From a virus: 40,156 nt of DNA. The notes under the pieces were generated by a model, which saw nothing but the letters and a program-made list of their open reading frames with translations, had not been told where the DNA came from and searched no databases. Position numbers and translations under genes: made by a program. The stretch is from IMG/VR virus record IMGVR_UViG_3300020470_000054, positions 1 through 40,156 of that record; one strand, 5' to 3'. Below, piece by piece: positions 1,050-26,701 of the stretch. Positions within the stretch are counted from its first letter, which is position 1. The number at the start of each line of letters is the position of its first letter.

Positions 1050-1199
1050 ATGTACGCAGATGAAGAAAAGGAAAAAGCATGGTTAGCCCAACTTCATAAT
1101 GCACGCAATACTAGTGATTGGGTTAGTCACTGGGCTTCCATTATACAAGAAGATTATCGTGAACGCAAACAAAAGTCAAGAAAAAAAGATAAAAAATGA
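1050..1199 (+). CDS. Small basic-tailed protein upstream of Fe-S carrier, 49 aa
   Basis: Not recognised. It begins at an ATG exactly on the predicted transcription start and ends in ATGA, sharing four bases with the start of the A-type carrier gene, so the two are an operon and probably translationally coupled. The protein has an acidic N-terminus, a Trp-containing centre (NTSDWVSHWASII) and a highly basic Lys/Arg C-terminus of about 12 residues. No cysteines. The coupling suggests a partner or regulator of the carrier, which is inference. Confidence 0.65.
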   Translation: MYADEEKEKAWLAQLHNARNTSDWVSHWASIIQEDYRERKQKSRKKDKK

Positions 1200-1513
1200 T
1201 AACACTGACTGACTCGGCTTCCGCAAAAGTAGCCCAACTTTTACAAGAAGAAGATGATGATTCGCTCGCATTAAGAGTGGGTGTACGTCCCGGCGGTTGC
1301 GCAGGTTTCAACTACGAAATGTTCTTTGATGTGAAAGGGGCTGATGACACAGAGCGGTCATTCGGTGATGTTAAGGTTATTGCTGATACTGTAAGTGCGG
1401 GGCTCTTGACTGGCGCTACTCTTGACTATCGCAATGGATTAGATGAGTCAGGGTTTAAGATAACTAACAACAAGGCACAAAAGACGTGCGGTTGTGGACA
1501 AAGTTTCTGTTAG
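1196..1513 (+). CDS. HesB/IscA-type (A-type) Fe-S carrier protein
   Basis: A-type carriers accept Fe-S clusters from an assembly scaffold and hand them to target proteins. The length (105 aa) and the three cluster cysteines match the family: C35 in GGCAGF, and C98 and C100 in the C-terminal CGCGQSFC. The fold-typical opening (LTDSASAKVAQLL) and the FKITN segment are also present. It is encoded downstream of, and overlaps by four bases with, the 49-aa gene under the promoter at 1015-1043. Possible clients in this genome are the WhiB protein (17832) and the Fe-S nuclease (19667); that link is inference. All key residues are intact. No scaffold or desulfurase gene was seen, so it must rely on host machinery. 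Confidence 0.92.
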   Translation: MITLTDSASAKVAQLLQEEDDDSLALRVGVRPGGCAGFNYEMFFDVKGADDTERSFGDVKVIADTVSAGLLTGATLDYRNGLDESGFKITNNKAQKTCGCGQSFC

Positions 1514-3119: not shown

Positions 3120-3775
3120 CGGAGCGAAAGTTTGAGAAAGTGAAGGGCAGGAGGAGATGGAGGCGATGAGTGATGATGCGTATTCCGTCATGCGATGATG
3201 CGATGATGACATGTTGCTAAGAGATGATGGAGATAACGTTATCAGTATACCAAGTATTGAGACTAATTGCAACATATAGTGACATATTTGTGTTAATAGT
3301 TTGGGATAGTATTTGGGAAGTTGTTAAAAGTGATGATGTTTTTGTTAATTTCTTTTGGTTCACGGGTTGCATATGTGAATAGTTGATGGTATACTGGTGT
3401 TTGAATATCGTACTTTATTGCGATGATGTTGATGATGTTTGATGTTGTTGATGATTTGTCATCATGTTTGTGTGATATGTTGGTGTGATATGTGTATGTG
3501 CATGTGACGTGCGAAGCGATGGCTGACGATGTTGATGGTGTACGTATATGTGTTATGAGTCCCGTTAGTGAACGAGTTAGAGATGAGGGGGTGATGGTAT
3601 GTTGGTAAAAAGCCCCGATGTTTTGACGATTGTTTGAGAGGAGGGGAGATGCGAAGACGAGTGGGGTGATGACATGATGGCGATGACGGAAGGGTACGAT
3701 GGTTGTGACTGTATGTGTAGTGTGTGTTGTATGTATGATATGAACGGGGCTTATGTGCGTGGGGTAGGGTAGGGC
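3120..3775. other. Non-coding G/T-rich low-complexity region
   Basis: About 650 bases with many GATGATG and TGTGATATG-type short repeats and a strong excess of G and T on the plus strand. Long minus-strand frames exist (3293-3898 and 3462-3830) but they overlap one another and give Thr/His/Ile-rich low-complexity protein, so they look like by-products of composition. The same skew continues through the SNF2 and deacetylase genes to about 7080. No promoter or terminator was found within it. Confidence 0.5.
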
Positions 3776-3793
3776 ACTCGCCGTGCACTCGCC
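3776..3793 (+). repeat. ACTCGCC double repeat, copy 4
   Basis: CACTCGCC-GTG-CACTCGCC. It is followed by GTTCGGGCGC and AAAACTTTTC, a diverged form of the context seen at the other copies. Confidence 0.65.
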
Positions 3794-3824
3794 TGTTCGG
3801 GCGCAAAACTTTTCCGAACAAATG

Positions 3825-3853
3825 TTGCAAAGTTCAAACAAATGTGATAAGAT
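3825..3853 (+). promoter_or_regulatory. Promoter reading into inverted-repeat region
   Basis: TTGCAA, 17 bases, TAAGAT, predicted start about 3860. No ORF of any length follows; transcription would enter the inverted-repeat array. An 18-bp palindrome (3883-3900) lies about 25 bases downstream and could act as an operator. A primer or regulatory transcript is possible. Confidence 0.45.
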
Positions 3854-3882
3854 GAGAGTGGGGACAAGCAATGCCTTTCGGA

Positions 3883-3900
3883 TTGTGAATCGTTTCACAA
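3883..3900. repeat. Palindrome TTGTGAA-N4-TTCACAA, left copy
   Basis: Perfect 7-bp arms around TCGT. A second copy with 8-bp arms lies at 4151-4170, so the two bracket the inverted-repeat array. Typical size for a dimeric repressor site. Confidence 0.65.
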
Positions 3901-3959
3901 AGGCTACTCGCTTAACATTCGGTATAAACTGGACCTATCATCAGCCGTACAGAACGCCT

Positions 3960-4147
3960 AACACTCGGTGTACGCTAAACGAACATTAGCCGTTAGGCTG
4001 ACCTAACACTAAACGTAAAGTAAACTTAACTAACAAAAAATGTTAAGCACACCTAACATGCAAGTTACCGACTAGTAACATAGATGTTAAGCGAACCTAA
4101 CAGATAACGTTCGTTATCCCAACACTTCATGTTAAGCCGACCTAACA
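3960..4147. repeat. Inverted-repeat array with four 18-bp units
   Basis: Four copies of an 18-bp imperfect palindrome, consensus TGTTAAGCNNACCTAACA, start at 3991, 4041, 4085 and 4130; the last three are 44-45 bases apart. The first copy has symmetric GTTAGG/CCTAAC arms. Other palindromes fill the gaps: GCTAA/TTAGC near 3974-3990, GTTAC/GTAAC at 4064-4079 and GATAACG-TT-CGTTATC at 4103-4118. There is no ORF. Regular spacing of sites on DNA suggests a replication initiator, partition protein or repressor array. This is the best candidate replication or partition locus together with the DnaA boxes at 1979-2010. Confidence 0.7.
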
Positions 4148-4150
4148 TAG

Positions 4151-4170
4151 TTTGTGAAACTTTTCACAAA
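4151..4170. repeat. Palindrome TTTGTGAA-N4-TTCACAAA, right copy
   Basis: Perfect 8-bp arms around ACTT, matching the left copy at 3883-3900. It marks the end of the inverted-repeat array, about 100 bases before the 3' end of the SNF2 gene. Confidence 0.65.
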
Positions 4171-4273
4171 GTTGCGGGACTTTTTGACGTCGGCTACCAT
4201 ACGAGGGCAGCTACACACCATATTTTTGGGTTGTGGGTTGCGGATTGTATTATGTGGGGTTTTTCACTTTGTG

Positions 4274-6172
4274 TTATGTGAGTGGTGTTAGGGCGTTGAT
4301 TAGTTTTGTGGGGTCGGGTTTGTCTGTTATTGCTTTGTGGGTGTTGTGGATTTTTGTTTGTATTGTGTTGTGTACGTGGGTGTCTATGGTTCCGGGGATT
4401 ATGAGGTTGTGGATTGTTACGGGTTGGGTTTGTCCGATTCTGTGTATTCTTGCTGTTGTTTGTTGGTAGTGGGCGGGTGTCCATGGGGGTTCTATTATTA
4501 GCATGTTGTGGGCTGCGTTGAGGGTGTGTCCGTGTGCGGCTGCTGTTATGCTGATTGTGATGTTCATGTGTTTGGGGTCGGTTGTGAATTTGTGTTTTGC
4601 GGTTTCGGTTTCTTTGGGGTTTTGGCCGCCTATTATTTTGAGTCCTCCGGTTTCGTTTGCTATGGTTTGTACTATTTCTCGGTGGTGGGCGGCGATGACG
4701 ATTTTTAGTCCTTGTTCGTTGGCGTTGTTTATCCATTCTATTGCTTGTTGTATTTTGGCGTGTGCGGTTATTTGTCGTAGGGCGGTTAGTTGGATGAGGG
4801 TTTCGTTGTTTTGTGCGGCGAAGTGTGCTTGTATTCTGGCGGCGTCGGGGTTTCGTCCTTCTTGGATGGCGAGTTGTTCGCATTGTGCTTTGTACCATTC
4901 TTGGAGGTCGTGTAGGGCTTGGTTGTATTGTTTTTTGTGTTTGTTGTCTAGGGTTGCGTGTATGGTGTTGTATGTGATTGGTGGTAGGTCTGGTAGGACG
5001 TCTTCTTTTTCTCTTCTGATGTAGCAGGTTTTGCGTAGGTTGTTGTGGAGTTCTGGTAGGTTGCTGGCTCCGTGTGTTTGCCAGTGTCCCCATTGGTCTC
5101 TGTAGGCTCCGCAGTAGCGTTTGTAGAAGTTCCAGAGTCCTCCTAGTTTTTCTAGTTGTCCGATGATTTCTAGTTGGGGTGCGTATTCTGCTGGTCGGTT
5201 TGTTATTGGTGTTCCTGTGAGTAGTAGGATGTTTCCGGTTTTGGGTATGTTTTTGGCGATGTGTTTTGCTGCTTTTGTGCGTTGTGCGGTTCTGTTTTTG
5301 CAGTAGTGTGATTCGTCTAGGATGAGTGTTTGGTAGTTGTTGTTTGTTAGTCCTGTTTTGTGGTGGTTTAGGTTTGGGTAGCCGATTATGGTGTAGTCGG
5401 TTTGGGTTTGTGGGGTTTCTTTGCGTCCTTGTATGTGGGTGGTTGTTCTGTGGGGTAGTGCTTCTTTGATTTTGTTTTCCCAGTCGTGTTGTAGGCTTGA
5501 TGGGCATACGATGAGTGCTGGGTATTGGTTGGTGTGTTCTGTGACGGCTAGGGATTGGAGTGATTTGCCTAGTCCCATTTCGTCGGCGATGAATGTTCGT
5601 TGTTTGTCGGCGGCGTATGCTACTCCTGCTTTTTGGTAGGGGTAGAGGTTTAGTTTTAGTTTGGGTATGTGTATGTTTGCGTCTGTTGCTTTGCTTAGGT
5701 TGATGGCGTGTTGGTCGTGTTGTTTTTCTATGTCGGCGTGTTCTTGTATGTGTTCTGGTATGGGTATGTCAAATTTGTTTGCCCAGTCTATGATGTCGTG
5801 TATGCTTGTTTTTGGGGCGATCCATTTTTTGGTGGCTGTGTCCCATTTGATTCCGGCGATGTTTTTGAGTTGGTCTACTTTGAGGGTTTCGTAGGGGAGG
5901 GTGACTATGAGTTTGTCGGTTTTTAGTTTTATGGAGGGTTTGCCGATTGGGTGGTGGGGTATTTGTAGTTTGATGAGGTCGTTGTCTATGTTGATTCCCC
6001 ACGCTTGGCAGAATTCTATTAGTTGTGTTGTTTCGGATACTGGGATGCGCCAGACTTTGTTTATTTTGTCCCATCGTGCTGTTGGGAAGCTGTCTTTGAG
6101 TGCTTGTATTTCGTCTGGGTTGTAGGGGGTGTCTAGTATTATGTGGGTGTCTTTTAGGTATATTTTTTTCAT
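4274..6172 (-). CDS. SNF2-family (SMARCAL1-like) helicase
   Basis: A DNA-dependent ATPase of the SNF2 family, 632 aa. Two HARP-like repeats lie at the N-terminus (about residues 13-45 and 88-120, each ending in a W-x-IP or W-x-AP motif), as in annealing helicases that remodel forks. The helicase core follows: motif I DEMGLGKS (197-204), motif II DESH (286-289), motif III LLTGTP near 320 and motif VI HRIGQTQP near the C-terminus. It starts one base after the deacetylase stop (TAACATG), so the two are coupled. Wobble positions are almost only A or C, unlike the genes to the right, which suggests acquisition from elsewhere. Likely role is replication fork repair or recombination; the partner is unknown. 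Confidence 0.93.
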   Translation of the reverse strand: MKKIYLKDTHIILDTPYNPDEIQALKDSFPTARWDKINKVWRIPVSETTQLIEFCQAWGINIDNDLIKLQIPHHPIGKPSIKLKTDKLIVTLPYETLKVDQLKNIAGIKWDTATKKWIAPKTSIHDIIDWANKFDIPIPEHIQEHADIEKQHDQHAINLSKATDANIHIPKLKLNLYPYQKAGVAYAADKQRTFIADEMGLGKSLQSLAVTEHTNQYPALIVCPSSLQHDWENKIKEALPHRTTTHIQGRKETPQTQTDYTIIGYPNLNHHKTGLTNNNYQTLILDESHYCKNRTAQRTKAAKHIAKNIPKTGNILLLTGTPITNRPAEYAPQLEIIGQLEKLGGLWNFYKRYCGAYRDQWGHWQTHGASNLPELHNNLRKTCYIRREKEDVLPDLPPITYNTIHATLDNKHKKQYNQALHDLQEWYKAQCEQLAIQEGRNPDAARIQAHFAAQNNETLIQLTALRQITAHAKIQQAIEWINNANEQGLKIVIAAHHREIVQTIANETGGLKIIGGQNPKETETAKHKFTTDPKHMNITISITAAAHGHTLNAAHNMLIIEPPWTPAHYQQTTARIHRIGQTQPVTIHNLIIPGTIDTHVHNTIQTKIHNTHKAITDKPDPTKLINALTPLT

Positions 6173-6173
6173 G

Positions 6174-7082
6174 TTAGAAGTGGGCGTAGTTTTCTATAGC
6201 CTTGTTGGCTGCGTTTATTGTGTTTAGGTGACTTTCTGCTAGGCTTTCTGCTGTTTGTGATTGTGTGTAGCCTCCTGCTAGTACGAATACGCAGGGTGTT
6301 CCTTGTTTCATGGTTTTGTTGAAGACTAGTTCGTCTCGTTTTTGTAGGGTGTCGTGTGATATTTCTGGGTATGGGTCTACTCCTGCATTGTATAATATGA
6401 GGTCTGTGTTGTCCCAGTCTACGAAGTAGGCTAGTGTTGTTTCTACGTCGGTTAGGTATTCTTCGTCTGTTGTGGCTATTGTTATGTGGTGTGTGTCGTC
6501 GGCTTCGTAGCTGTCAAACATGTTTGTTGAGATGTCGTATTGGTGTACTCGGTCGTCTATTTTTAGGTCTCTTAGCATGCTTACGGTTCCTCCTCCGCAG
6601 TGTGCGTCAAAGTCTAGTATTACGATGTTTTGGTCTTTTAGTAGGTTTGCTGCTACTGCGAGTCCGTTTACGGTGCAGTATCCGTCTCCTTGGTCTGTTT
6701 TGGCGTGGTGGAGTCCTGATGAGAGGCTTCCTGCTATGAGGTGTGGGTACCAGTTTTCTCTTGGGAGTTTACTCATGGCGCTTATTACGCTTTCGCATGC
6801 GGCTAGTATTCCGGCGGTGCTGTTGGCGGCCATTTTCCATATGCCTTCGTCCCAGTCAAAGCCGTTTGATGCTGCTAGCCATTTTGGGTCACCTGTGATT
6901 AGGCTTTGTACGTATTCTTCTGAGTGGGCTTCGTGTATTCCGTGTATGGCTAGATTTACGGCGTGTTTGGGGTCCATTACGTTGTCTAGTCCTAGTTTGG
7001 CGGCGATGTCTGCGCTTTTTCGTGTGGTGTCAAATGACTCTTGTGCAGCGACGTAATGTTTGTTGTAAAATATGTCTATCAT
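6174..7082 (-). CDS. HDAC/AcuC/acetylpolyamine-hydrolase family deacetylase
   Basis: A zinc-dependent deacetylase of the arginase-deacetylase fold, 302 aa. Visible landmarks: the active-site pair H125-H126 in SGLHHAK, GYCTVNG after it, zinc ligands D159 and H161 within ILDFDAHCGGGT, D236 in YNAGVDP, and the LAGGY loop with Tyr272. The usual second His after the ligand (DxHH) is Cys here. The start is placed at the ATG at 7082, preceded by AAGGAG; an in-frame TTG at 7142 lacks one. It is the first gene of an operon with the SNF2 helicase under the promoter at 7182-7210. Wobble bases are A/C-biased. Substrate could be acetyl-lysine on a host or phage protein or an acetylated small amine; sequence alone cannot tell. 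Confidence 0.88.
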   Translation of the reverse strand: MIDIFYNKHYVAAQESFDTTRKSADIAAKLGLDNVMDPKHAVNLAIHGIHEAHSEEYVQSLITGDPKWLAASNGFDWDEGIWKMAANSTAGILAACESVISAMSKLPRENWYPHLIAGSLSSGLHHAKTDQGDGYCTVNGLAVAANLLKDQNIVILDFDAHCGGGTVSMLRDLKIDDRVHQYDISTNMFDSYEADDTHHITIATTDEEYLTDVETTLAYFVDWDNTDLILYNAGVDPYPEISHDTLQKRDELVFNKTMKQGTPCVFVLAGGYTQSQTAESLAESHLNTINAANKAIENYAHF

Positions 7083-7095
7083 TTTGCTCCTTATA

Positions 7096-7122
7096 TGAAC
7101 TAACCCCCAAACTAGTTGGGGG
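7096..7122. repeat. Hairpin in deacetylase leader
   Basis: Perfect 8-bp arms ACCCCCAA/TTGGGGGT around about 5 bases, in the 5' leader of the deacetylase-SNF2 mRNA, just before its ribosome binding site. It could modulate translation or attenuate transcription. No T-run follows it on the minus strand. Confidence 0.55.
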
Positions 7123-7148
7123 TCAGCAATCGCTATACTCAAATATTT

Positions 7149-7174
7149 TAGGTGCTATTTGTGTATTGGGGCGA
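7149..7174. repeat. 26-bp repeat, copy A
   Basis: A 26-bp sequence beginning TAGGTGCTA matches 24 of 26 bases of a second copy at 12075-12100. Here it lies in the deacetylase leader, between the promoter and the hairpin. Confidence 0.7.
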
Positions 7175-7181
7175 TACTGTT

Positions 7182-7210
7182 AGCCTAGCAAATTATAGCT
7201 TTCTTGTCAA
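7182..7210 (-). promoter_or_regulatory. Promoter for deacetylase-SNF2 operon
   Basis: Minus strand: TTGACA (7210-7205), 17 bases, TAGGCT (7187-7182). The -35 box overlaps the stop codon of the primase gene. The leader is about 90 bases, unlike the leaderless genes, and contains a repeat and a hairpin. Confidence 0.6.
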
Positions 7211-9009
7211 CCCCAGATTCCGTCATCTTCTTCAAACTCTATGTTTTCATCTGAAGTTTGCGGTTCGTTTTCTGTTTGCTGGTAGTTTTGATATTGTGCG
7301 AATTCTACTACCTCAAATGGCCATGTGTCTCCTCGTTTGCATAGCTCTGGCCATTCTCTTGCTTCTCGTTGACCTCTGTAGTGTTTGAACTGTATTAGTT
7401 CTGGGTCTGTTGGGTCGGGTGCTAGAGCGATACCGAACTCTGACCATCTTGACCATACTGCCGATCCGAATGGTCGTAGGTCTCGTTGTCCACCTGACCC
7501 TAGTGGGGCGTGGTGTTCTATCCATAGCGCACAGTCGTATGTTACTCTTAGGTAGTCAAGGAATCTTGCTATTTCAATTGATACTGATTCGGCTGTTCTA
7601 CCGCCGGGGTCTATGAATGCTTTGTAGAGCGGACCGAAGAATAGTATGTCTGGTTTTATTGCTGCTACTTGTTCTTCTATCGCTGCTCTATCTTCTGGCT
7701 TTAACAGGTTCACACCGTCCGGCTTCATCCATAGGTGTGCGTCCATGTCTTTGTGCTTGTCATGCCATTTAATCTTTTCGTAGATTCTTCTTGCGGTACG
7801 TTGAATGATTCGTTCTGGGTTTTCTAAGTCTATCATTAGTGTCCGTACTGGCTTTATTGCGTTTCGTTTGAATGGGTGTATGCCTGCTGACGACAGTAGT
7901 GCTACTTGGCGAGCGAGCGTGGTTTTACCGGCTCCTTCTGCCGCAACTACGATGACTCGTTCTTGTCTCTCTAACACGTTTGGGATTACCCAGTCGTAGG
8001 AAAGGTCAACGTCTTTTTCTAGGAATGGGCTCCATTCTACGAGTGTCCCTGCGTCTTTGTATTCGTGACGAACGTTGCCTATGAATGAGTCCATTCGTGC
8101 GTTTACTTGCGCTAGTAAAGCTTCGTCTGTTATGTCTTCTTTGTTTCCTATTTCGTGTAGATCTTTTATTAACTTGTCTACTTCTGGCCTGTTAGTTGGA
8201 TTGGTGGTAACTTCTTCTGGCGCTTCTGCGTCAAAGGGTATTAGGGATTGTGGTATTTCCCCACCGTCTTCTAATAGGTCACTTATGTCATTGTATTTTC
8301 CGGGCTTATATACTCTTACGGTGGCACCGACTTTTATAAGGTCGTTGTATACTGCTCTTGCGTGTAGATATCCAGCGTCGTCGTTATCGCATATAATTAT
8401 TACGTTTGCCCCTGCGAGTGTTTGGGTGTGATGGTCCATCCATTTGTTTTGACCTTCACCGCCTGCACCGCCCGGATTGGTAGTGGCAACTTTTCCAATC
8501 GCTTCTAGTGAGTGTACGTCTTTTTCACCTTCTACAATGTAGATGGGTTTGCCTTCTTCTTTTGCGGCAATGACCTGTGGCAGTCTGTATAGTGGTTTCG
8601 TTATGCCTGATGTTGACCAGTCCCATCCACCGTTTTCTGACGGCTTTCTTTGACGAAATGTTTTTTTGCCGCTGTCATCTATGAAACGCAAAACTTCCAT
8701 GACCTTATTACCGTCTTCGTCATAGTATTTGTATGTGTCTTGTAAAGTTAAATCTGGCTTTTTGCTCGGCATGCGTTTTGATTCTTTCGGAAATAAGTCT
8801 GATAGTGACAACCCTATGGATTCGCATACTTCTGATGCGGAGCACCCACCGCCTCGTTGGCAATGTATCAAGACTTGCTCTTGTTTTCCTACCGCTACAC
8901 GTAGCGAGGGATTTTCGTCATCGTTTCTACATGGGCACCTTGCGTCCCACTGGTTTTTACCTGACTCTTTGTGATCTAGTCTGGATAGTACATTATCAAT
9001 TGGTTTCAT
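7207..9009 (-). CDS. DNA primase-helicase (zinc finger, TOPRIM, RepA-type ATPase)
   Basis: Replication protein of 600 aa. Domains in order: a CHC2-like zinc finger (CPC at about 25-27, HC at 49-50 and a further Cys near 56), a TOPRIM domain (VEGEKD at about 159-164, CDNDDAG at about 207-213), then a RecA/RepA-type ATPase (Walker A AAEGAGKTT at about 356-364, LMIDLENP, DILFFGP as Walker B, IEHHAP). The N-terminal half makes primers and the C-terminal ATPase likely unwinds DNA. The start at ATG 9009 has GGAGG 8 bases upstream; the in-frame GTG at 9018 abuts that site. It overlaps the loader gene by 14 bases. Confidence 0.92.
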   Translation of the reverse strand: MKPIDNVLSRLDHKESGKNQWDARCPCRNDDENPSLRVAVGKQEQVLIHCQRGGGCSASEVCESIGLSLSDLFPKESKRMPSKKPDLTLQDTYKYYDEDGNKVMEVLRFIDDSGKKTFRQRKPSENGGWDWSTSGITKPLYRLPQVIAAKEEGKPIYIVEGEKDVHSLEAIGKVATTNPGGAGGEGQNKWMDHHTQTLAGANVIIICDNDDAGYLHARAVYNDLIKVGATVRVYKPGKYNDISDLLEDGGEIPQSLIPFDAEAPEEVTTNPTNRPEVDKLIKDLHEIGNKEDITDEALLAQVNARMDSFIGNVRHEYKDAGTLVEWSPFLEKDVDLSYDWVIPNVLERQERVIVVAAEGAGKTTLARQVALLSSAGIHPFKRNAIKPVRTLMIDLENPERIIQRTARRIYEKIKWHDKHKDMDAHLWMKPDGVNLLKPEDRAAIEEQVAAIKPDILFFGPLYKAFIDPGGRTAESVSIEIARFLDYLRVTYDCALWIEHHAPLGSGGQRDLRPFGSAVWSRWSEFGIALAPDPTDPELIQFKHYRGQREAREWPELCKRGDTWPFEVVEFAQYQNYQQTENEPQTSDENIEFEEDDGIWG

Positions 9010-9472
9010 CTGATGCACCTCCGTAGTTGTTTAGAATGTATTCTTCTCTAACTTTTTCATACAATGATGTGAACATTGCACGGTCAGAGTTTGTTGTTAA
9101 ACTTGTTGCGCTTGAACCTAAGCGACGCATAGTGTCTGCCAACACTGGATGTGGCTTGTCGTAATCGTAGGTTCCGCTGTAAATCTTTTGTCCAATTGCT
9201 TGAAGCACAGTCCATGCTTCTTCTGGCTCTGGTGGAAGTTCGTCTCCACGAATTTTGGCTAACGTGTTTATCCGTAGTTCAGCCGGTCTTGGGGCCCATC
9301 GTTTCCCAGATAGGGCGAGGCTTTTAATGGTTGTTTTTACTTCGTTGTAGGGAAGGTCCTGAAGGTACTCCCAGTAACCCATTGTGCGAATGTTTATTGA
9401 TGATTGGTCTAAAGGCATGTTCCAGCTAACACTAAGTAATTGGGTAGCCTTCATGCACTCTTCTTTGTCCAT
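8996..9472 (-). CDS. Probable replicative helicase loader (G39P/DnaI-type)
   Basis: 158 aa. The central motif of a short helical domain, YWEYLQDLPYNEVKT followed by RWAPRPAELR, resembles the N-terminal domain of phage helicase loaders such as SPP1 G39P. Its position directly upstream of, and overlapping, the primase-helicase gene fits that role, though a loader for a fused primase-helicase would be unusual. No Walker motif is present, so it is not a DnaC-type ATPase loader. The mRNA is predicted leaderless: the ATG at 9472 is 7 bases after the -10 box. The identification is by motif and context only. Confidence 0.6.
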   Translation of the reverse strand: MDKEECMKATQLLSVSWNMPLDQSSINIRTMGYWEYLQDLPYNEVKTTIKSLALSGKRWAPRPAELRINTLAKIRGDELPPEPEEAWTVLQAIGQKIYSGTYDYDKPHPVLADTMRRLGSSATSLTTNSDRAMFTSLYEKVREEYILNNYGGASDETN

Positions 9473-9478
9473 GACTAA

Positions 9479-9507
9479 ATGATACTCCTTTTGAATCTAA
9501 AAGTCAA
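9479..9507 (-). promoter_or_regulatory. Leaderless promoter for loader-primase operon
   Basis: Minus strand: TTGACT (9507-9502), 17 bases, TATCAT (9484-9479), then 6 bases to the ATG at 9472. Confidence 0.8.
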
Positions 9508-9523
9508 GTGTGTAACTTTGGTG

Positions 9524-9541
9524 ACCCCCCTTTCGGGGGGC
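9524..9541 (-). terminator. GC hairpin after ssb
   Basis: CCCCCC-TTTC-GGGGGG perfect hairpin between ssb and the loader promoter. No T-run follows on either strand, so it may be a pause or RNA-protecting element rather than a complete intrinsic terminator. Confidence 0.5.
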
Positions 9542-9572
9542 CGACCATTGTTATCCTTTCGCCTAGTGATGA

Positions 9573-10004
9573 TTAAAAATCTTCAAAAGGGTCAGAAGAA
9601 GGTGCAGCCGATGCCTTTGCAGGCGTTTTGCTGTACGATCCATCACCTGACTTTTGACGTCTGGTGATATCTTCAAGACCATAGACATTTACTGCGATTG
9701 AGTCTGCAACGACTTCAACCGTTGAACGTTTTTGACCTGTCTCTTTATCTTCCCATGAGCGTTGCTCAAGACGACCTTTAACGATAACTGGTAGTCCTTT
9801 TTCAAGAATTCCAGCAGCGTCTTCTGCGGTCTTTCTCCAAGCTACGACATTGAAAAATGACGTGTCTCCCGTCCATTCACCGTTAACCTGATAACGTCGC
9901 TCTGATGCCACTGAAAAGGCCAATCGTGCGTTTCCGTTATTTGAGTATTTCAACTCTGGATCAGCGGTGATATTTCCTGTAATTGCTGTGTCTGCGTTTC
10001 CCAT
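9573..10004 (-). CDS. ssb: Single-stranded DNA-binding protein
   Basis: 143 aa. The OB-fold SSB signature is clear: an N-terminal ITGNITADPELKYSNNGNAR, then FNVVAWRKTAEDAA and the LEQRSWEDKETGQKR strand, as in bacterial SSB. The C-terminus is a low-complexity linker ending in the acidic SDPFEDF tip, which in bacterial SSBs binds partner proteins. It coats single-stranded DNA for replication and recombination. Transcribed from the promoter at 10043-10071 with a leader of about 30 bases and an AGGAG site before the ATG. Confidence 0.96.
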   Translation of the reverse strand: MGNADTAITGNITADPELKYSNNGNARLAFSVASERRYQVNGEWTGDTSFFNVVAWRKTAEDAAGILEKGLPVIVKGRLEQRSWEDKETGQKRSTVEVVADSIAVNVYGLEDITRRQKSGDGSYSKTPAKASAAPSSDPFEDF

Positions 10005-10042
10005 ATTAGTCTCCTATCCATAAGTATCTTGCAGATATTTAT

Positions 10043-10071
10043 ACAATAGCAAATCTGTAGAGTCTTGTCAA
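10043..10071 (-). promoter_or_regulatory. ssb: ssb promoter
   Basis: Minus strand: TTGACA (10071-10066), 17 bases, TATTGT (10048-10043). It is back to back with the plus promoter at 10082-10110; the two -35 boxes are 10 bases apart and could be co-regulated. Confidence 0.72.
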
Positions 10072-10081
10072 GGGTTGGGGC

Positions 10082-10110
10082 TTGATTTTTTTCTAGGGCT
10101 GTATTACAAT
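10082..10110 (+). promoter_or_regulatory. Leaderless promoter for 10117 gene
   Basis: TTGATT, 17 bases, TACAAT, then 6 bases to the ATG at 10117. Confidence 0.78.
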
Positions 10111-10116
10111 AACAAT

Positions 10117-10335
10117 ATGGGTAAAGATTTAGCAGTAGAACAAATGACTTTATACGATGGAATTGTTTCCGTACTTTTAGATTTAGCGGGAATTGAAGAA
10201 GATGATGTACAGGGTTATGATGACATGACCGATATGGCTTCAGTACTTTTTGAAACTCTTGAGATAGAAGCTATAGAAGAAAAAGTAGGTACTTTCTCAG
10301 GTAAGAGGAAGATTTTGTTCAGCGCTACCATTTGA
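10117..10335 (+). CDS. Hypothetical acidic protein, 72 aa
   Basis: Not recognised. A small acidic protein (GIEEDDVQGYDDMTDMAS) with Leu-rich helices and no cysteine. The start is set by the leaderless promoter at 10082-10110, later than an in-frame ATG at 10075 that lies upstream of it. Its last 39 bases overlap the 3' end of the thymidine kinase gene on the opposite strand, so the two mRNAs share complementary tails. It is a single plus-strand gene within a minus-strand block. Confidence 0.6.
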   Translation: MGKDLAVEQMTLYDGIVSVLLDLAGIEEDDVQGYDDMTDMASVLFETLEIEAIEEKVGTFSGKRKILFSATI

Positions 10336-10908
10336 CATAAAATGTTTTCTACATACAACTTGGTAGTCAATGACAGAGTTGTTGTCAACAATTGTATCTT
10401 CTCCATGGTACGCCCTACGCCCACCGACAAATAAAGCGTTGTGGGTTGCAGGAGTTCCGCACCAACATCGTTTTCCATTTTTTATTTGTTTTATTTCGTC
10501 AGCAAGTTCTAACGCTCTACGTGAAGCTGGAAAAATTTGTCCTTTGTAAGAGGTGAGCAATCCAAATAGTTGTATGTGGATGTCACGAGTGTCTGCTAAT
10601 ATGGCTAGCGCCTCAACTTGTTCTTCTGAAAAGAATTGTATTTCGTCTGCAAGTATACAAGACACAGAAAGATTTTTTTCTTTTTCGTATGATTCAACTA
10701 GGTCAGCAATGATAGCATCGTCTTCAACGGTGGTAGCTAATTGAGACACACCTGTTCGGGAACTACAAATATTATTACCGCATCGGTCGTGTTTGTTTAG
10801 AAGCATGACTTGACCCGGAAATGCTTCGTTTAAGTTGAAGTGTGTTTGCAGGAGAAGCGTGGTTTTTCCTGACGCCATCGTGCCATGTCTAAAAATAATA
10901 TTCCCCAT
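10297..10908 (-). CDS. tdk: Thymidine kinase
   Basis: Type II thymidine kinase, 203 aa, which phosphorylates thymidine to dTMP to supply DNA precursors. Motifs: P-loop GTMASGKTT (9-17), DEIQF (88-92) with the catalytic Glu, LFGLLTSYKGQIFPAS, and the zinc-binding cysteines KRCWCGTPATHNALF plus a late VVCRKHF. The length matches the family. It starts 9 bases after the stop of the FmdB-like gene and is probably in the same transcript. The 3' end overlaps the 10117 gene tail to tail. Confidence 0.95.
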   Translation of the reverse strand: MGNIIFRHGTMASGKTTLLLQTHFNLNEAFPGQVMLLNKHDRCGNNICSSRTGVSQLATTVEDDAIIADLVESYEKEKNLSVSCILADEIQFFSEEQVEALAILADTRDIHIQLFGLLTSYKGQIFPASRRALELADEIKQIKNGKRCWCGTPATHNALFVGGRRAYHGEDTIVDNNSVIDYQVVCRKHFMSNGSAEQNLPLT

Positions 10909-11198: not shown

Positions 11199-12023
11199 CT
11201 ACTCAGCAGGAGCGTCTTCTTCAGGAGTTTCTTCCTTAGGCTCTTCTTTCTTTTTTGCTGGAGCCTTTTTCTTTGCTGGAGCTTTCTTTGGTTTGCTTTC
11301 AACCATCTCGGCTAGAGATTCTTCTACGCTTTTTGATGGTTTTTCAGGCTCTTCTGCAACTGCTTCTTCTTTGACTGCTTCTTTTTTGACTGCTTCTTTT
11401 TTAGGAGCAGGCTGAACTATTTCTATTTCATCTGGGGTTGGAACCTTTGTTGACTTTTTGAGTTTTAGAACAATTTGCATTTCGTTTGCTTCTTCTGGAA
11501 GAAATGAAGCAAACTGTGAGTTTGGTGTAACTGTAGAAGAAATTACTCCGGTAGTTTTTGGCCAATCAACATAGGATAAAATCCTGCTGTGCATGGCTAC
11601 TCCATGTGAAAGAAACTCGCCAAATTGTAGAGGCACATCAAGTTCGTCTGTTAACTTTTTAATCATTTTTGCAGTTGCTTCAAGATTTTTTTGAGGCATT
11701 GGATGCGCTTCTAAACCTACAACTAGAACCCAAAATGAAGTTCCAATTGATGCTGGAGATTTAGGTAAATGGTCATCAACTATAAGCGCCTTTTTGTCAG
11801 TAGGTAAGTGTTGATACAGCGTGTCGGTCTCCGCATCATACGTTGCGTGAGGACATAGTCTTCTTTCTTCGTAATCTGCAAACGAGCCAGCAACAGTCTT
11901 TGCGCCAGTAACACCTAGAACAAGTTTTGGGCTACCTTCAGATTGCCTAGCAACAAGGTGTGAATCGGTGATCCATGTTGGCCTAACCTGTATAGTTCCT
12001 TTGTAATTCAATAAATTTCCCAT
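11199..12023 (-). CDS. Amidase-like (PGRP-fold) protein with Lys/Glu-rich tail
   Basis: 274 aa. The N-terminal about 190 residues resemble phage N-acetylmuramoyl-L-alanine amidases: RRLCPHATYDAETDTLYQHLP, then an ASIGTSFWVLVVGLEAHP strand and later FLSHGVAMHSRILSYVDWPKT. If this is right, the usual first zinc ligand is missing: the expected V-L-H-x-T is VLGVT (Gly for His). The C-terminal about 80 residues are low complexity, with repeated AVKKEAV and KKAPAKKK units resembling histone H1-like tails. It could be an endolysin, an inactive cell wall binder or a virion protein. The start ATG at 12023 is 6 bases after a TACAAT box (12035-12030). Confidence 0.45.
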   Translation of the reverse strand: MGNLLNYKGTIQVRPTWITDSHLVARQSEGSPKLVLGVTGAKTVAGSFADYEERRLCPHATYDAETDTLYQHLPTDKKALIVDDHLPKSPASIGTSFWVLVVGLEAHPMPQKNLEATAKMIKKLTDELDVPLQFGEFLSHGVAMHSRILSYVDWPKTTGVISSTVTPNSQFASFLPEEANEMQIVLKLKKSTKVPTPDEIEIVQPAPKKEAVKKEAVKEEAVAEEPEKPSKSVEESLAEMVESKPKKAPAKKKAPAKKKEEPKEETPEEDAPAE

Positions 12024-12029
12024 GATGTT

Positions 12030-12069
12030 ATTGTACCTTACTTTGCAACCCAATGCCAGTAGGTACAAT
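12030..12069. promoter_or_regulatory. Divergent promoter pair with mirrored -10 boxes
   Basis: TACAAT on the minus strand (12035-12030) is 6 bases before the ATG of the amidase-like gene; TACAAT on the plus strand (12064-12069), with TTTGCA at 12042-12047 and a 16-base spacer, serves the secreted repeat protein. The -10 boxes, each with GG in front, form an inverted repeat (ATTGTACC/GGTACAAT), so the two genes may be co-regulated. The minus -35 is poor. Confidence 0.55.
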
Positions 12070-12074
12070 ATTGG

Positions 12075-12100
12075 TAGGTGCTACTTGTGTATTGGGGCAA
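12075..12100. repeat. 26-bp repeat, copy B
   Basis: Second copy of the sequence at 7149-7174 (24 of 26 bases identical, direct orientation). Here it covers the predicted 5' leader of the secreted repeat protein. Confidence 0.7.
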
Positions 12101-12102
12101 AA

Positions 12103-15009
12103 TTGTCTAAATTTTTTAAAAGAGCCGCTAAGGGCTGCATAGTTTGGGTATTTTTACTTGCCTTACTTGCCCCCGCTACGGCTTACGCCGCAACATATCA
12201 AGTAGATGATCTTTCGGATTGGTACTTTTACTTAGACTCAACTCAAGAGGTAACTATTTACGGAAACTCTGACCAGTCTTGTAGCTCAATTGATTGGGAG
12301 ACTACGGGAACCGATCCGTACTTATTTTTGTATGAATACAATCCAAATGGGCAAGATACATACTTAACTGAAGATGATGACGCTGGGCACGACGAGCAAA
12401 CACAGTGTGTTAGTTCAAAAATAGTTACCACTCTTGATGAGGGCGTGTACAGAATACGTGCAGGTTATTGGGACGAAAACTCCGGTAGCACTGTCAACGG
12501 TGGAACTGGGAATCCGGAGTACACTCAAGACTGGGGTGATCTGGATTACACAATTGTAACTGATTTAAACATTTCTGAAACCGTTCAGGTCGGCCCTCCG
12601 ATGAACCTGACTATAACTGATAGTGGGAATTCAATTACTTTAGATTGGGATGCTCCAAATACAGGAATCATACCTGTAGAGCGTTATGCAATCTCTTGGC
12701 GCATTCCTCCTAATGCTGGTTGGGGTGTTTCCACTGGTAACGTGGGTGATGCGAATGCTCTAAATACCGAGATAACTATACCGTATTCTTCTTTTGAATC
12801 TACGGGCGGCCTTGGTGAAACTTATGTTTTTGATGTAAGGTCTGATAATGATACCCTTGGGTTTTATTCCGGCTGGTCTACTCAGGTTAGTTTAGAGATA
12901 GGCCCTTCAGATACTGACGGTGATGGGGTCATGGACCCTGACGAAACTGAAGGGTGTATCAACGATATTGACTGCGACGATGATGGTACTGGTGACTTGG
13001 AAGACACTGACGATTTAGACCCAGATGTTCCTGTCCTTACGGTTGACACTGATGGTGATGGCGTCTTTGACGCTGAAGAAGAAGATGGTTGTGGAGACAA
13101 CGTAGATTGTGACGGTGACGGAACCAATGATGCACAAGACCCTGACGACGCTGACCCAGATGTTCCTGTGTTAACAGTAGATACTGACGATGATGGAGTT
13201 TTTGATGCAGAAGAAACAGAGGGGTGTGAGGACGACGAAGATTGTGATGATGACGGTACAGGCGATCTTCAGGATACCGATGATTTAGATCCTGATGTAC
13301 CCAACCTTACAGTAGATACAGATGGAGATGGCGTCTTTGATCAAGAAGAAACAGAAGGCTGTATTGACGACACTGATTGCGATGACGACGGAACTGATGA
13401 TTTCCACGATATTGACGACTTAGATCCTGATGTCCCAGTTCTAACTGTAGACACTGACGGTGATGGAGTGTTTGATGCCGAAGAAGAAAATGGTGAAGAC
13501 TTACAAACTGGAGAAATAGTTGAATGCCGATTCTTTGTTGACTGCGATTTTGACGGTACAGGAGACTTTGACGATCCAGACGATCACGACGCTGACGTAC
13601 CCGTATGGACTATAGACAACGATGGTGATGGCGAGTTTGATAAGGGCGAAGAAGAAGGGTGTGAGCTTACACCAGACTGTGACGGTGACGGTACAGGTGA
13701 CCTTGAGGACCCTGATGACTACGAACCTGACGTACCAGTGTGGACAATAGATAATGACGGTGACGGTGTTTTTGATAGAGGTGAAGAAGCAGGCTGTGTT
13801 TGGGATATAGACTGTGACGACGACGGTACTGGCGACTTGGAAGACCCAGATGATTACGAGCCGGACATTCCTGTGTGGACGATAGACTCAGACGGCGACT
13901 TTGTGTTTGACAGAGGAGAAGAGTTTGGTTGTGAGGATCTTGTAGACTGTGACTTTGACGGAACTTTTGACTTTGACGACCCTGATGATTTTGATCCAGA
14001 TGTTCCTTTTTTAACAATTGACTCTGATGGGGACTTGGTGTTTGACCAAGAAGAATTTGAGCAATGTATTGAAAATCCTGACTGCGACTTTGACGGCATT
14101 GAGGACTTTCAAGACATTGATCCACTTGACCCAGACTCTCCGTTTTTGACCGTTGATAGCGACGAAGATGGGGTCTTTGACGCAGAAGAGGAATTTGGCT
14201 GCGAGTTTATAGAGGACTGTGACGATGATGGATTTACTGACGATGTTGACCCTGACCCACTAGACCCAGATGTGCCCGTAGAAAGAGTTTTGATTGACGG
14301 AGAAGAGGTTGAGTTCTCGTTTGTTGATGAAGAAACAGGTGAGGAACTTAGCAGTGAAGAATTCTTTGAAGAGTTTGAAGTAGCAGAAGAAGATGAAGAA
14401 CTAGCGTTGGAACTTAACAGTCTTGGTATTGACATTGAAGACGTTGATCTTTCTGAGGTTGACGACGCCGAAGAAAAAATCATTGAAGCCCTTGATGAAT
14501 TAGATGAAGAGTTGGCTGAAGACTTCCTTGACGTTGTTGACGGCGAGGTAACTGAAGAAGAAATCCAAGACTTATTTGAAGATGAAGAAGCATTTGAAAC
14601 GCTTATTGAAGAAAACGAAGGAGCTATTGCAATAATTGTTGATGCAGTGAATGAAGCGGATGACTCCGTAAAGGAGGAATTTGAGGAAGAGGTGAATATC
14701 TTTGAAGACGAAGCTTATAACGAATACGTTGCTGCGGGTTCAAACATTGACACCGAAGATAGGCGTGTTATTGTTGCGGCGGCTGCTACAGCCACCGTTG
14801 CGGCAGCAGCAGCCCGACCTGCTCCGCCGACACCACTGCCGCCTCCTCCACCTGCAACACCGACACCTCCACCATCCGGTCCGTCGCCAGCACCATCTGG
14901 CCCAGCGGCATCAGCACCTGCTGCTTCAGGACCATCAGTTGACGTGTCATCAGGAGGGGGAGATGTCGCACCCAAGAAATCAAGAAGGTTTGGAAGGAGG
15001 AGAAAGTAA
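12103..15009 (+). CDS. Secreted calcium-binding repeat protein (thrombospondin type 3-like)
   Basis: 968 aa from a TTG start. That start is chosen because the ATGs at 12022 and 12025 lie before the promoter, and because it gives an ideal signal peptide: SKFFKRAAKGC, a hydrophobic IVWVFLLALLAPATA core and an AYA/ATY cleavage site. After it come a beta-rich domain (about 30-165, prepeptidase-C-like by eye), an FN3-like domain (about 165-265) and ten TSP3-like units of about 42 residues (DNA 12910-14270). Each unit has two DxDxDG calcium motifs and usually a Cys pair. An acidic Glu-rich part, an Ala-rich hydrophobic stretch, a Pro-rich region and a basic tail (KKSRRFGRRRK) follow. It is probably cell-surface or virion-exposed and stabilised by calcium. 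It heads the holin operon. Confidence 0.82.
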   Translation: MSKFFKRAAKGCIVWVFLLALLAPATAYAATYQVDDLSDWYFYLDSTQEVTIYGNSDQSCSSIDWETTGTDPYLFLYEYNPNGQDTYLTEDDDAGHDEQTQCVSSKIVTTLDEGVYRIRAGYWDENSGSTVNGGTGNPEYTQDWGDLDYTIVTDLNISETVQVGPPMNLTITDSGNSITLDWDAPNTGIIPVERYAISWRIPPNAGWGVSTGNVGDANALNTEITIPYSSFESTGGLGETYVFDVRSDNDTLGFYSGWSTQVSLEIGPSDTDGDGVMDPDETEGCINDIDCDDDGTGDLEDTDDLDPDVPVLTVDTDGDGVFDAEEEDGCGDNVDCDGDGTNDAQDPDDADPDVPVLTVDTDDDGVFDAEETEGCEDDEDCDDDGTGDLQDTDDLDPDVPNLTVDTDGDGVFDQEETEGCIDDTDCDDDGTDDFHDIDDLDPDVPVLTVDTDGDGVFDAEEENGEDLQTGEIVECRFFVDCDFDGTGDFDDPDDHDADVPVWTIDNDGDGEFDKGEEEGCELTPDCDGDGTGDLEDPDDYEPDVPVWTIDNDGDGVFDRGEEAGCVWDIDCDDDGTGDLEDPDDYEPDIPVWTIDSDGDFVFDRGEEFGCEDLVDCDFDGTFDFDDPDDFDPDVPFLTIDSDGDLVFDQEEFEQCIENPDCDFDGIEDFQDIDPLDPDSPFLTVDSDEDGVFDAEEEFGCEFIEDCDDDGFTDDVDPDPLDPDVPVERVLIDGEEVEFSFVDEETGEELSSEEFFEEFEVAEEDEELALELNSLGIDIEDVDLSEVDDAEEKIIEALDELDEELAEDFLDVVDGEVTEEEIQDLFEDEEAFETLIEENEGAIAIIVDAVNEADDSVKEEFEEEVNIFEDEAYNEYVAAGSNIDTEDRRVIVAAAATATVAAAAARPAPPTPLPPPPPATPTPPPSGPSPAPSGPAASAPAASGPSVDVSSGGGDVAPKKSRRFGRRRK
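12910..14270 (+). repeat. Ten tandem Asp-rich coding repeats, about 126 bp each
   Basis: Ten in-frame units begin with a T/N/S-D-x-D motif followed by VFD or similar and end near DPDVP. Protein identity is high but synonymous positions vary widely, so the units are old or kept apart by silent change. Unit 5 carries an insertion (EDLQTGEIVE). Confidence 0.8.
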
Positions 15010-15916: not shown

Positions 15917-16891
15917 CTACATGGTGTCGTAGATCTTTTGAGCTATTTCCTCACGAATTTCGGGATTGTCGTCAAGGAATGCTTTTGTGTTAACTCTACC
16001 CTGACCTATGTTTTCCCCATTGTAAGCATACCACGCACCTTTTTTATCTAAGATGTTTAGATCTGCCCCAATGTCAACAATGTCACCAGTTCGGCTTATT
16101 CCTTCACCATAAGTTATTTCAAACTCAGCTTGTCGGAAAGGTGGAGCGACTTTATTTTTTACAACTTTTACTCTTGTTTTATTTCCAGAGGCTTCACCGT
16201 CTGCTTTAAGCGTTTCTATTCTACGAATATCTAATCTAACAGATGAATAAAATTTCAATGCTCGTCCGCCTGTTGTTGTTTCAGGAGACCCAAACATTAC
16301 TCCAATTTTTTCACGAATTTGATTAATCATAATTAAAATAGTTTTTGAATTGTTTAAGTTGCCTACGATTTTACGCATGGCTTGCGACATCAGCCTAGCA
16401 TGCAGCCCTACGAAACTGTCGCCCATTTCTCCCTCAATTTCTTTGGCGGGTGTTAATGCAGCAACGGAGTCAACAACGATTACATCTAAGGCACCTGACT
16501 CAATTAATTTATTTGTAATGGTGAGCGCTTGTTCACCCGTGTCAGGCTGACTTACAAGCAGATTGTCAACATCACAGCCAATTGCTCCTGCGTAAATTGG
16601 GTCAAGTGCGTGCTCTGCATCAATAAAGGCGCACGAACCACCTAGTTTTTGAGCCTCTGCAATGACATGCAAAGCTAAGGTAGTTTTTCCTGACGACTCT
16701 GGTCCGTATATTTCAGTGACCCGCCCTTTTGGCAGTCCTCCTACGCCGAGCGCTATATCAAGCGCAATTGACCCAGTAGACAAAGTCTCAACCTCCATTG
16801 AGGAAGCATCGCCAAGTCTCATGATTGATCCGGCTCCGAATTGTTTTTCTATTTGGCCTAAGGCCTCTTCTAAAAGTTTTTCTTTACTCAT
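15917..16891 (-). CDS. recA: RecA recombinase
   Basis: 324 aa, strand-exchange recombinase and co-protease. Landmarks: Walker [10 protein letters not shown] (about 63-71), [19 protein letters not shown] (Walker B and following), [22 protein letters not shown]-type loop L2 region (here [10 protein letters not shown] and SPETTTGG) and [11 protein letters not shown]. It is shorter than the about 350 aa of cellular RecA because the acidic C-terminal tail is absent. The start MSKEKLL at 16891 is the leaderless one; an ATG 6 bases earlier is inside the promoter spacing. It may support phage replication, repair or host SOS modulation. Confidence 0.97.
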
Positions 16892-16897
16892 ACACAT

Positions 16898-26534: not shown

Positions 26535-26701
26535 TGGATGACAAAGAAGACATAACGATAACATTTTCATTTGAAGTAGCGGTTGCCGCCCTTGCATCAA
26601 TAGAAGCGGCGAAAGACCGTGTTGATCCTGATAGGGTTGAATATAAACAAAGATTATATGATGCCCAAAGAATACTTATGGAAGCTATGGGCGTTAATTA
26701 A
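26534..26701 (+). CDS. Hypothetical protein, 55 aa
   Basis: Not recognised. The ATG overlaps the preceding stop by one base (TAATG), so it is co-translated. A beta-like N-terminus (DITITFSFEVAVAALASIEAA) is followed by a charged helix. It ends convergently with the terminase gene: the last bases of the two genes overlap by 4. Confidence 0.65.
   Translation: MDDKEDITITFSFEVAVAALASIEAAKDRVDPDRVEYKQRLYDAQRILMEAMGVN

Follow-up and report, generated by a model that had tools for sequence, protein, structure and literature searches.

In vertebrate mitochondrial DNA, A- and C-ending codons prevail on one strand and this asymmetry is graded from the replication origin, and in bacterial chromosomes the GC skew changes sign at oriC, with a G+T-rich leading strand. 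In this report, we describe a strand asymmetry with the sign and gradient of the mitochondrial one at the end of a phage replication operon (TK-SSB-loader-primase-HDAC-SNF2) carried by the IMG/VR virus record IMGVR_UViG_3300020470_000054, the whole 40,156 bp of which, classed as linear and probably a fragment, are called the window below. The phage bias differs from the mitochondrial one in that it occurs in double-stranded DNA (dsDNA) phages, is confined to ~5 kb and is near 100% at wobble sites. It also differs in size from bacterial skew, for which ~2.5% is typical according to the available part of the SkewDB report (PMC8941118), whereas the window at 4-6 kb has a GC skew of 0.38-0.42 and an AT skew of -0.45 to -0.60.

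The last two genes of the operon encode a predicted zinc deacylase of the HDAC superfamily and an SNF2-family helicase. Among described HDACs, V. cholerae HdaH, a lysine de-decanoylase of cluster 5b in the accessible portion of its description (PMC11532494), and Leptospira HDAC11 resemble the phage protein in whole-length fold, zinc ligands, His pair, GGY Tyr and an SxG-x-HH loop in place of RPPGHH, but the phage protein is without the HP of the HPFD loop and its DFDAHCGGGT motif has Gly where V. cholerae HdaH has Asp. Rhodococcus phage E3 gp202, a putative histone deacetylase, belongs to the same subfamily (38.6% identity, same DFDAHCGGGT motif), but has no SNF2 gene annotated within 10 kb and shows ordinary GC-rich wobble use. 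Giant viruses likewise encode members of the superfamily; the characterised ones are reported to be working acetylpolyamine amidohydrolases (APAHs) of Imitervirales (PMC9992855), whereas in both sequence and fold the phage protein stands nearer to class IV. An original prediction had taken the two genes for a coupled deacetylase-helicase device with foreign codon use. These coupling and foreign-origin readings are mostly wrong, and the main surprise is an origin-like edge with near-total strand bias.

Near-total bias graded towards a sharp edge

The features that bear on the bias are as follows.
4190..4225, no strand: sharp, non-coding edge of the gradient, ~50-80 bp beyond the SNF2 stop codon, past which the bias reverses (50-bp bins)
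4205..9018, no strand: strand-asymmetry gradient (- strand A+C-rich, + strand G+T-rich)
4274..6172, - strand: SNF2-family helicase, 632 aa, last gene of the operon (PF00176, E 1.4e-31; PF00271)
6174..7082, - strand: HDAC-fold zinc deacylase as predicted, 302 aa, ATG start at 7082 (Pfam PF00850, E 8.1e-25)
7207..9018, - strand: primase/helicase upstream of the HDAC gene, with intermediate bias (Pfam Toprim/AAA_25; PHROG primase)

In the SNF2 gene of the window, the wobble base is A in 278/279 purine choices and C in 295/296 pyrimidine choices (together 573/575), followed by the HDAC gene (A 132/134, C 127/140) and the primase gene (A 262/320, C 155/234). The other 26 window genes measured lie at ~0.50-0.81 for A and 0.18-0.54 for C and are without this bias, and chance is out of the question as the cause. 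The claim that wobble bases here are almost only A or C was therefore, if anything, too modest for SNF2; its companion, that the two genes form a discrete block, did not hold, because the bias is graded and reaches into the primase gene instead of stopping at two sharp limits. Counted back from the edge in 1-kb steps, A+C is 0.76, 0.77, 0.66, 0.60, 0.58 and 0.55, and then ~0.50-0.57; across the edge, successive 50-bp bins drop from 0.86 to 0.48, 0.48, 0.40 and 0.32. Synonymous first positions are also affected, with Leu TTR in 0/52 and Ile ATT in 0/71 cases in the window SNF2 (13/28 and 17/30 in the window RecA gene). Since these codons are avoided, and since non-coding DNA at a distant HDAC locus is 0.91 A+C (see below), the bias acts at the base level, beyond wobble sites.

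Very long open second frames run through the A/C-rich region, at 4194-5507 (-) in the window and in the corresponding open reading frames of relatives. They are explained by the scarcity of T, not by a second gene; dual coding was rejected for these and for the long antisense frames, as the longest second-frame run in the window SNF2 is 497 codons against a mean of 609 in 300 synonymous shuffles.

The gradient is a property of the family. With the window primase as query, a scan returned 52 related contigs, and in the 18 loci listed the bias climbs towards SNF2, which is the final gene wherever the end of SNF2 can be seen. The A+C excess falls off exponentially with distance from the edge, the decay length being 3.0 kb (fitted to 184 gene values in 19 records; the edge was projected for records cut inside SNF2). 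One and the same gene is less biased where it lies farther from the edge, as found for HDAC (rho -0.57, p 0.03, n=14), primase (rho -0.56, n=19) and epimerase (rho -0.77, n=10), with p-values that are optimistic because the records are related. In two records of 100-105 kb (G032 and G016) this region is the most strongly biased, and in a third of 128 kb (G021) it is also the peak, albeit a mild one. At all nine loci with sequence beyond the SNF2 stop codon, A+C on the coding strand starts at 0.76-0.98 over the 50 bp that follow the stop, falls to 0.34-0.58 over the 50 bp after that, and by 100-150 bp is under 0.5 in 8/9 loci (0.56 in the exception, L040), indicating that the bias reverses in non-coding DNA.

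Position, not gene, determines the bias

Other genes that stand last at such edges share the bias, among them HDAC, HNH and small uncharacterised genes, and we therefore conclude that position, not gene, determines it. On a distant phage contig (L165) whose HDAC is 40% identical to that of the window, the HDAC gene itself is at the edge and has A at 66/66 and C at 217/217 wobble sites (283/283); the 185 non-coding bp after it are 0.91 A+C, and then the bias reverses. An HNH gene (L235) has 151/152 A/C wobble bases, an uncharacterised 120-aa gene (L210) 108/117, and a 162-aa gene unrelated to SNF2 (L029) 143/150 (A 65/68, C 78/82). Even a LAGLIDADG intein-like insertion within SNF2 (L022 14580-17537; L052 15712-18669) has reached 92% A/C wobble (316/342 and 314/342), beside 407/407 in the C-terminal extein. 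A bias specific to SNF2 was rejected, since the A/C wobble of other phage SNF2 genes is 0.65 (Ottawa), 0.40 (RM378) and 0.58 (LR756508).

A 16-base element, AAAAGTTTGCGGGRCT, was chosen by sequence at several edges, and its new matches among viral contigs were then tested for composition. The scan gave 30 matches, 3 already known and 27 new, of which 25 were testable; in seven of the 25, the 500 bp ahead of the element reach 0.62 A+C or more, a bias that 2.5% of all sequence windows in the new loci attain. One contig too short for the test (L226) falls from 0.94 to 0.14 A+C across the element.

As an observation in its own right, AAAAGTTTGCGGGRCT recurs in unrelated phages (L206-L235), at some loci beside CGAACGTGTGTTCG palindromes and composition edges.

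Origin-like elements at the edge

Two sets of elements lie just past the edge of the window.
4040..4148, + strand: three near-palindromic 20-nt repeats, ATGTTAAGCNNACCTAACAT, at 44-45 bp spacing (repeat family D3)
4168..4185, + strand: AAAGTTGCGGGACTTTTT, by eye a loose, inverted-orientation copy of the relatives' edge element AAAAGTTTGCGGGRCT

The ATGTTAAGCNNACCTAACAT repeats of the window would be origin-iteron-like. In the relatives, GAAC-N4-GTTC palindromes number 24 in the 6.5 kb past nine edges (present at 7/9 loci) versus 2 in the other 174 kb, and G021 has a separate palindrome array past SNF2. Clusters of DnaA-like boxes, defined as at least four per 300 bp, occur in three of the loci L002-L055 (720 kb, L003 left out), once at the edge (L018) and twice several kb past the primase gene (L025 and L026). 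Among 66 phage HDAC loci outside the window's family (845 kb), three have such a cluster (L156, L165 and L181), in each case within ~600 bp of HDAC, and that of L165 is located at the edge. Repeat arrays resembling initiator-binding sites, whether palindromes, DnaA-box clusters or the window's own repeat family, are thus found at the skew reversal.

The replication operon and its surroundings

Upstream of the primase gene, the operon continues through 8996..10908.
8996-9472, - strand: helicase-loader-like gene
9573-10004, - strand: SSB gene
10297-10908, - strand: thymidine kinase gene

The HDAC stop codon is followed by the SNF2 start after one base, just as the original prediction had said. 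It had also placed both genes under one promoter and called the helicase HARP-SNF2, and neither claim was borne out: the coding strand of the primase-HDAC gap holds no sigma-70-like match, and while SNF2 membership is clear (SNF2-rel_dom 110.1 bits, E 1.4e-31; Helicase_C 39.3 bits), HARP is over its cut-off in none of the 15 records searched, the window included (11.8 bits vs 25). Sub-threshold HARP matches occur in eight of these 15, one being N-terminal in the window SNF2, and the SNF2 relative of L022 alone passes as a whole protein (27.9 bits vs 25). In contigs that are long enough, the gene order of the relatives' operon is primase, epimerase, HAD, ThyX, HDAC, PhyH-like dioxygenase, a small gene and SNF2, although the content varies.

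Megablast of window positions 1-25000 found no near-identical relative among 50,697 cultured-phage records. Because marine Acidimicrobiales have the nearest bacterial HDACs, and Arthrobacter and Gordonia phages have matches to the primase and SNF2, our guess is that the host may be actinobacterial. Elsewhere in the window, an A-type iron-sulphur carrier protein (PF01521) is encoded at 1196-1513 (+), with a copy of 67% identity in G021; a 995-aa protein at 12022-15009 (+) has by eye many DxDxDG-type acidic repeats and is kept next to the operon in relatives at highly variable length; and a phage RecA is encoded at 15917-16897 (-), with ~84-88% identity across the family.

A class IV-like HDAC widespread in uncultured phages

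The HDAC protein scores 88.2 bits for Pfam Hist_deacetyl (cut-off 27.9, E 8.1e-25), and its HH pair, D-x-D-x-H, AG-x-D Asp and GGY Tyr are invariant in 13/13 aligned phage HDACs, with catalytic roles that we take to be those of HDAC8. The zinc deacetylase with zinc ligands and His pair intact that was originally proposed is thus upheld. An AlphaFold2 model of the window protein, built with 12 phage sequences, has a pLDDT of 84.3; its nearest solved structure is V. cholerae HdaH (9GKV/9GKY; Z 28.2, 2.8 A over 273 residues, 26% identity), which is also the first match by sequence, followed by Leptospira HDAC11 (9GZ5, Z 26.6), a next match at 25.4 and other bacterial HDACs at ~25. PHROGs and NCBIfam searches assigned no family, and a BFVD search gave five matches at E 0.001 or better, all to giant-virus proteins. 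One report on class IV enzymes defines clade B by an HPFD loop with an F gatekeeper and clade A by HRFD with T (PMC13325672). The window protein has ESFD instead, and all 13 phage HDACs have Leu before HH (Leu124), where clade B has F and clade A has T. Because loop and gatekeeper deviate even though the nearest structures are class IV-like, we call the protein class IV-like, not a class IV member; judged from sequence and model, it is nearest to class IV-like bacterial deacylases, and lysine deacylase would be its likeliest activity.

The original statement that HDAC-like enzymes are rare in phages fits the cultured ones, with one phage accounting for 2/50,697 records, but does not extend to uncultured ones: when the alignment of 13 sequences was used as query, members turned up in at least 92 IMG/VR contigs (80 kept). 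This query also hit 47 genome contigs, which belong to Actinomycetota and several further phyla; some look viral, for example L059, which carries a primase. The subfamily is also borne by a viral contig of 618,736 bp (L182).

The postulated coupling to SNF2 survives in part. The two genes belong to one replication operon, yet among 14 operons of the window's family with both they are direct neighbours in three (window, L002 and L004): L002 keeps the one-base gap, L004 has a 4-bp overlap, L005 a 116-bp gap, and elsewhere the genes are farther apart, in some cases by at least 3.1 kb. Five further operons have SNF2 without HDAC (L008, L010, L013, L014 and L040). The pair is thus found within the family, but in the 66 distant HDAC loci SNF2 lies within ~1.3 kb in only four, two of which are the same sequence (L166 and L180). 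We regard the coupling as weak. The more common neighbour in those loci is an open reading frame with an HCHAGxSRST-like signature, which directly precedes HDAC and ends within ~20 bp of it in 26/66; two members were scanned and match dual-specificity phosphatases weakly. The phosphatase-HDAC pair is also present in Acidimicrobiia (L056, L057 and L078).

In two single-cell genomes of marine Acidimicrobiales/Actinobacteria (L056 and L057, ~3188-6879), genes for an ADP-ribosylglycohydrolase, a dual-specificity phosphatase and HDAC stand in a row, possibly as three modification erasers.

Discussion

With slightly better than even confidence, we favour a model whereby the edge is a replication origin, the bias arises by mutation of a displaced strand, and the HDAC is a class IV-like accessory deacylase of replication modules. 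A fork leaving ~4.2 kb rightward in the window would displace the + strand as lagging-strand template, and the part of this strand closest to the origin would stay unpaired for the longest time; its deamination (C to T, A to G) would make the + strand G+T-rich and leave the coding strand with A- and C-ending codons, and the reversal on the other side of the edge would reflect a second, diverging fork. The bias is graded with distance, has the right sign and includes non-coding DNA, as in mitochondria-like mutation. The HDAC would be accessory cargo, not a unit with SNF2, and would most likely deacylate lysine residues in a protein of the host or the phage; a role as modification eraser fits the phosphatase gene that is its commoner neighbour elsewhere.

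Several observations weigh against this model. The window is without a DnaA box near its edge and without GAAC-N4-GTTC; 18/25 testable copies of AAAAGTTTGCGGGRCT have no edge, and the seven with one collapse to three sequence groups. The distance effect for ThyX, HAD, PhyH and the small gene has the same sign but is not significant, and L023/G021 has the same layout yet a weak bias (SNF2 0.73). Intergenic spacers near the edge are at 0.54-0.75, less extreme than wobble sites, which pure mutation would explain only if spacers were constrained. Fourfold sites are saturated, and between relatives T and G are replaced by either A or C, with no clean transition signature. As for the enzyme, clade A class IV enzymes, which are close relatives, were reported inactive on the acyl-peptides assayed (PMC13325672).

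One alternative is that selection keeps an A/C-only strand, for example because a G/T-rich strand favours RecA loading at the origin or because the transcript must be unstructured. We consider this unlikely, but it retains a substantial share of our belief because spacers are less biased, no transition signature is seen and the bias of G021 is weak. Values such as 573/575 for SNF2 and 283/283 for the L165 HDAC are hard to reach through mutation alone, the phage encodes its own RecA, and RecA is reported to prefer TGG repeats (PMC3763553). Replication-linked mutation, however, would naturally give a smooth 3-kb decay over unrelated genes and a sign reversal past the edge, and non-coding DNA in L165 is nearly as biased as the genes, while an intein has been brought to almost the same level.

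A somewhat poorer prospect, in our judgement, is that the HDAC acts on a small molecule such as acetylpolyamine, unrelated to DNA. The giant-virus enzymes set a precedent, the relatives' neighbourhood is rich in metabolic genes (ThyX, TK, epimerase), and APAH folds, at Z ~25, score only ~3 Z units under the best match. Nevertheless, class IV/cluster 5 lysine deacylases, and not APAHs, come first in both sequence and fold comparisons, and many loci have the phosphatase neighbour.

It is quite improbable that the edge is a genome end, a packaging site or a transcription terminator, with skew from end resection or transcription. The edge does coincide with the operon 3' end in the SNF2 group and with a gene 3' end in L165, L206, L210, L227 and L235, and some contigs stop near it; several others run at least 2 kb past it, TerL is distant (26698-28017), and DnaA-box clusters and palindrome arrays at edges, together with a reversal that fits diverging forks, argue for an origin. 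Deamination during transcription or in R-loops was rejected, since exposure of the non-template strand would be expected to yield the opposite sign.

That HDAC and SNF2 jointly deacetylate and remodel a DNA-bound host protein, the device first envisaged, now seems very doubtful. The tight spacing in L002 and L004 and the four distant loci with SNF2 near HDAC would fit it, but five operons dispense with HDAC, others separate the genes by at least 3.1 kb, and SNF2-type helicases are common in phages (952/50,697 records) where this kind of HDAC is in two. Finally, recent foreign acquisition with donor codon use, suggested by a composition unlike that of neighbouring genes, is ruled out by the gradient: in 18 more records the SNF2 orthologues have the same gene order and the same bias, which they lose far from the edge, unrelated genes at the same place have it, and the E3 HDAC and three SNF2 genes of other phages are without it, as are 65/66 other phage HDACs (A/C wobble at most 0.71).

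Extending the origin model, we tentatively propose, as possible more than probable, that a broad group of uncultured dsDNA phages replicates, at least initially, by displacing one strand slowly from an origin driven by DnaA or iterons, which would leave that strand exposed for long enough that nearby genes are recoded to near-pure A/C wobble in a mitochondria-like manner. Literature searches, mostly at title or abstract level and with subscription papers largely absent, returned no description of such an edge or mode for a dsDNA phage. A far more speculative notion, to which we give little credence, is that acetylation switches off host DnaA and the phage deacylase reverses this, so that the phage origin would fire in slow-growing, acetylated cells. 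All three DnaA-box clusters in the 66 HDAC loci lie within ~600 bp of HDAC, and DnaA acetylation is reported to inhibit initiation in E. coli (PMC4971506, PMC5397419).

Islands of unusual codon use in a phage are not necessarily of foreign origin. The deacylase subfamily is widespread in phages and often follows a phosphatase gene, and its members are candidates for erasing modifications of host proteins. Should the edge prove to be an origin, the place where replication starts and the asymmetry of the forks could be read from base composition alone in uncultured phages. These phages would also be a natural example of replication, instead of host codon choice, setting nearly every synonymous base and altering the amino-acid content of a protein.

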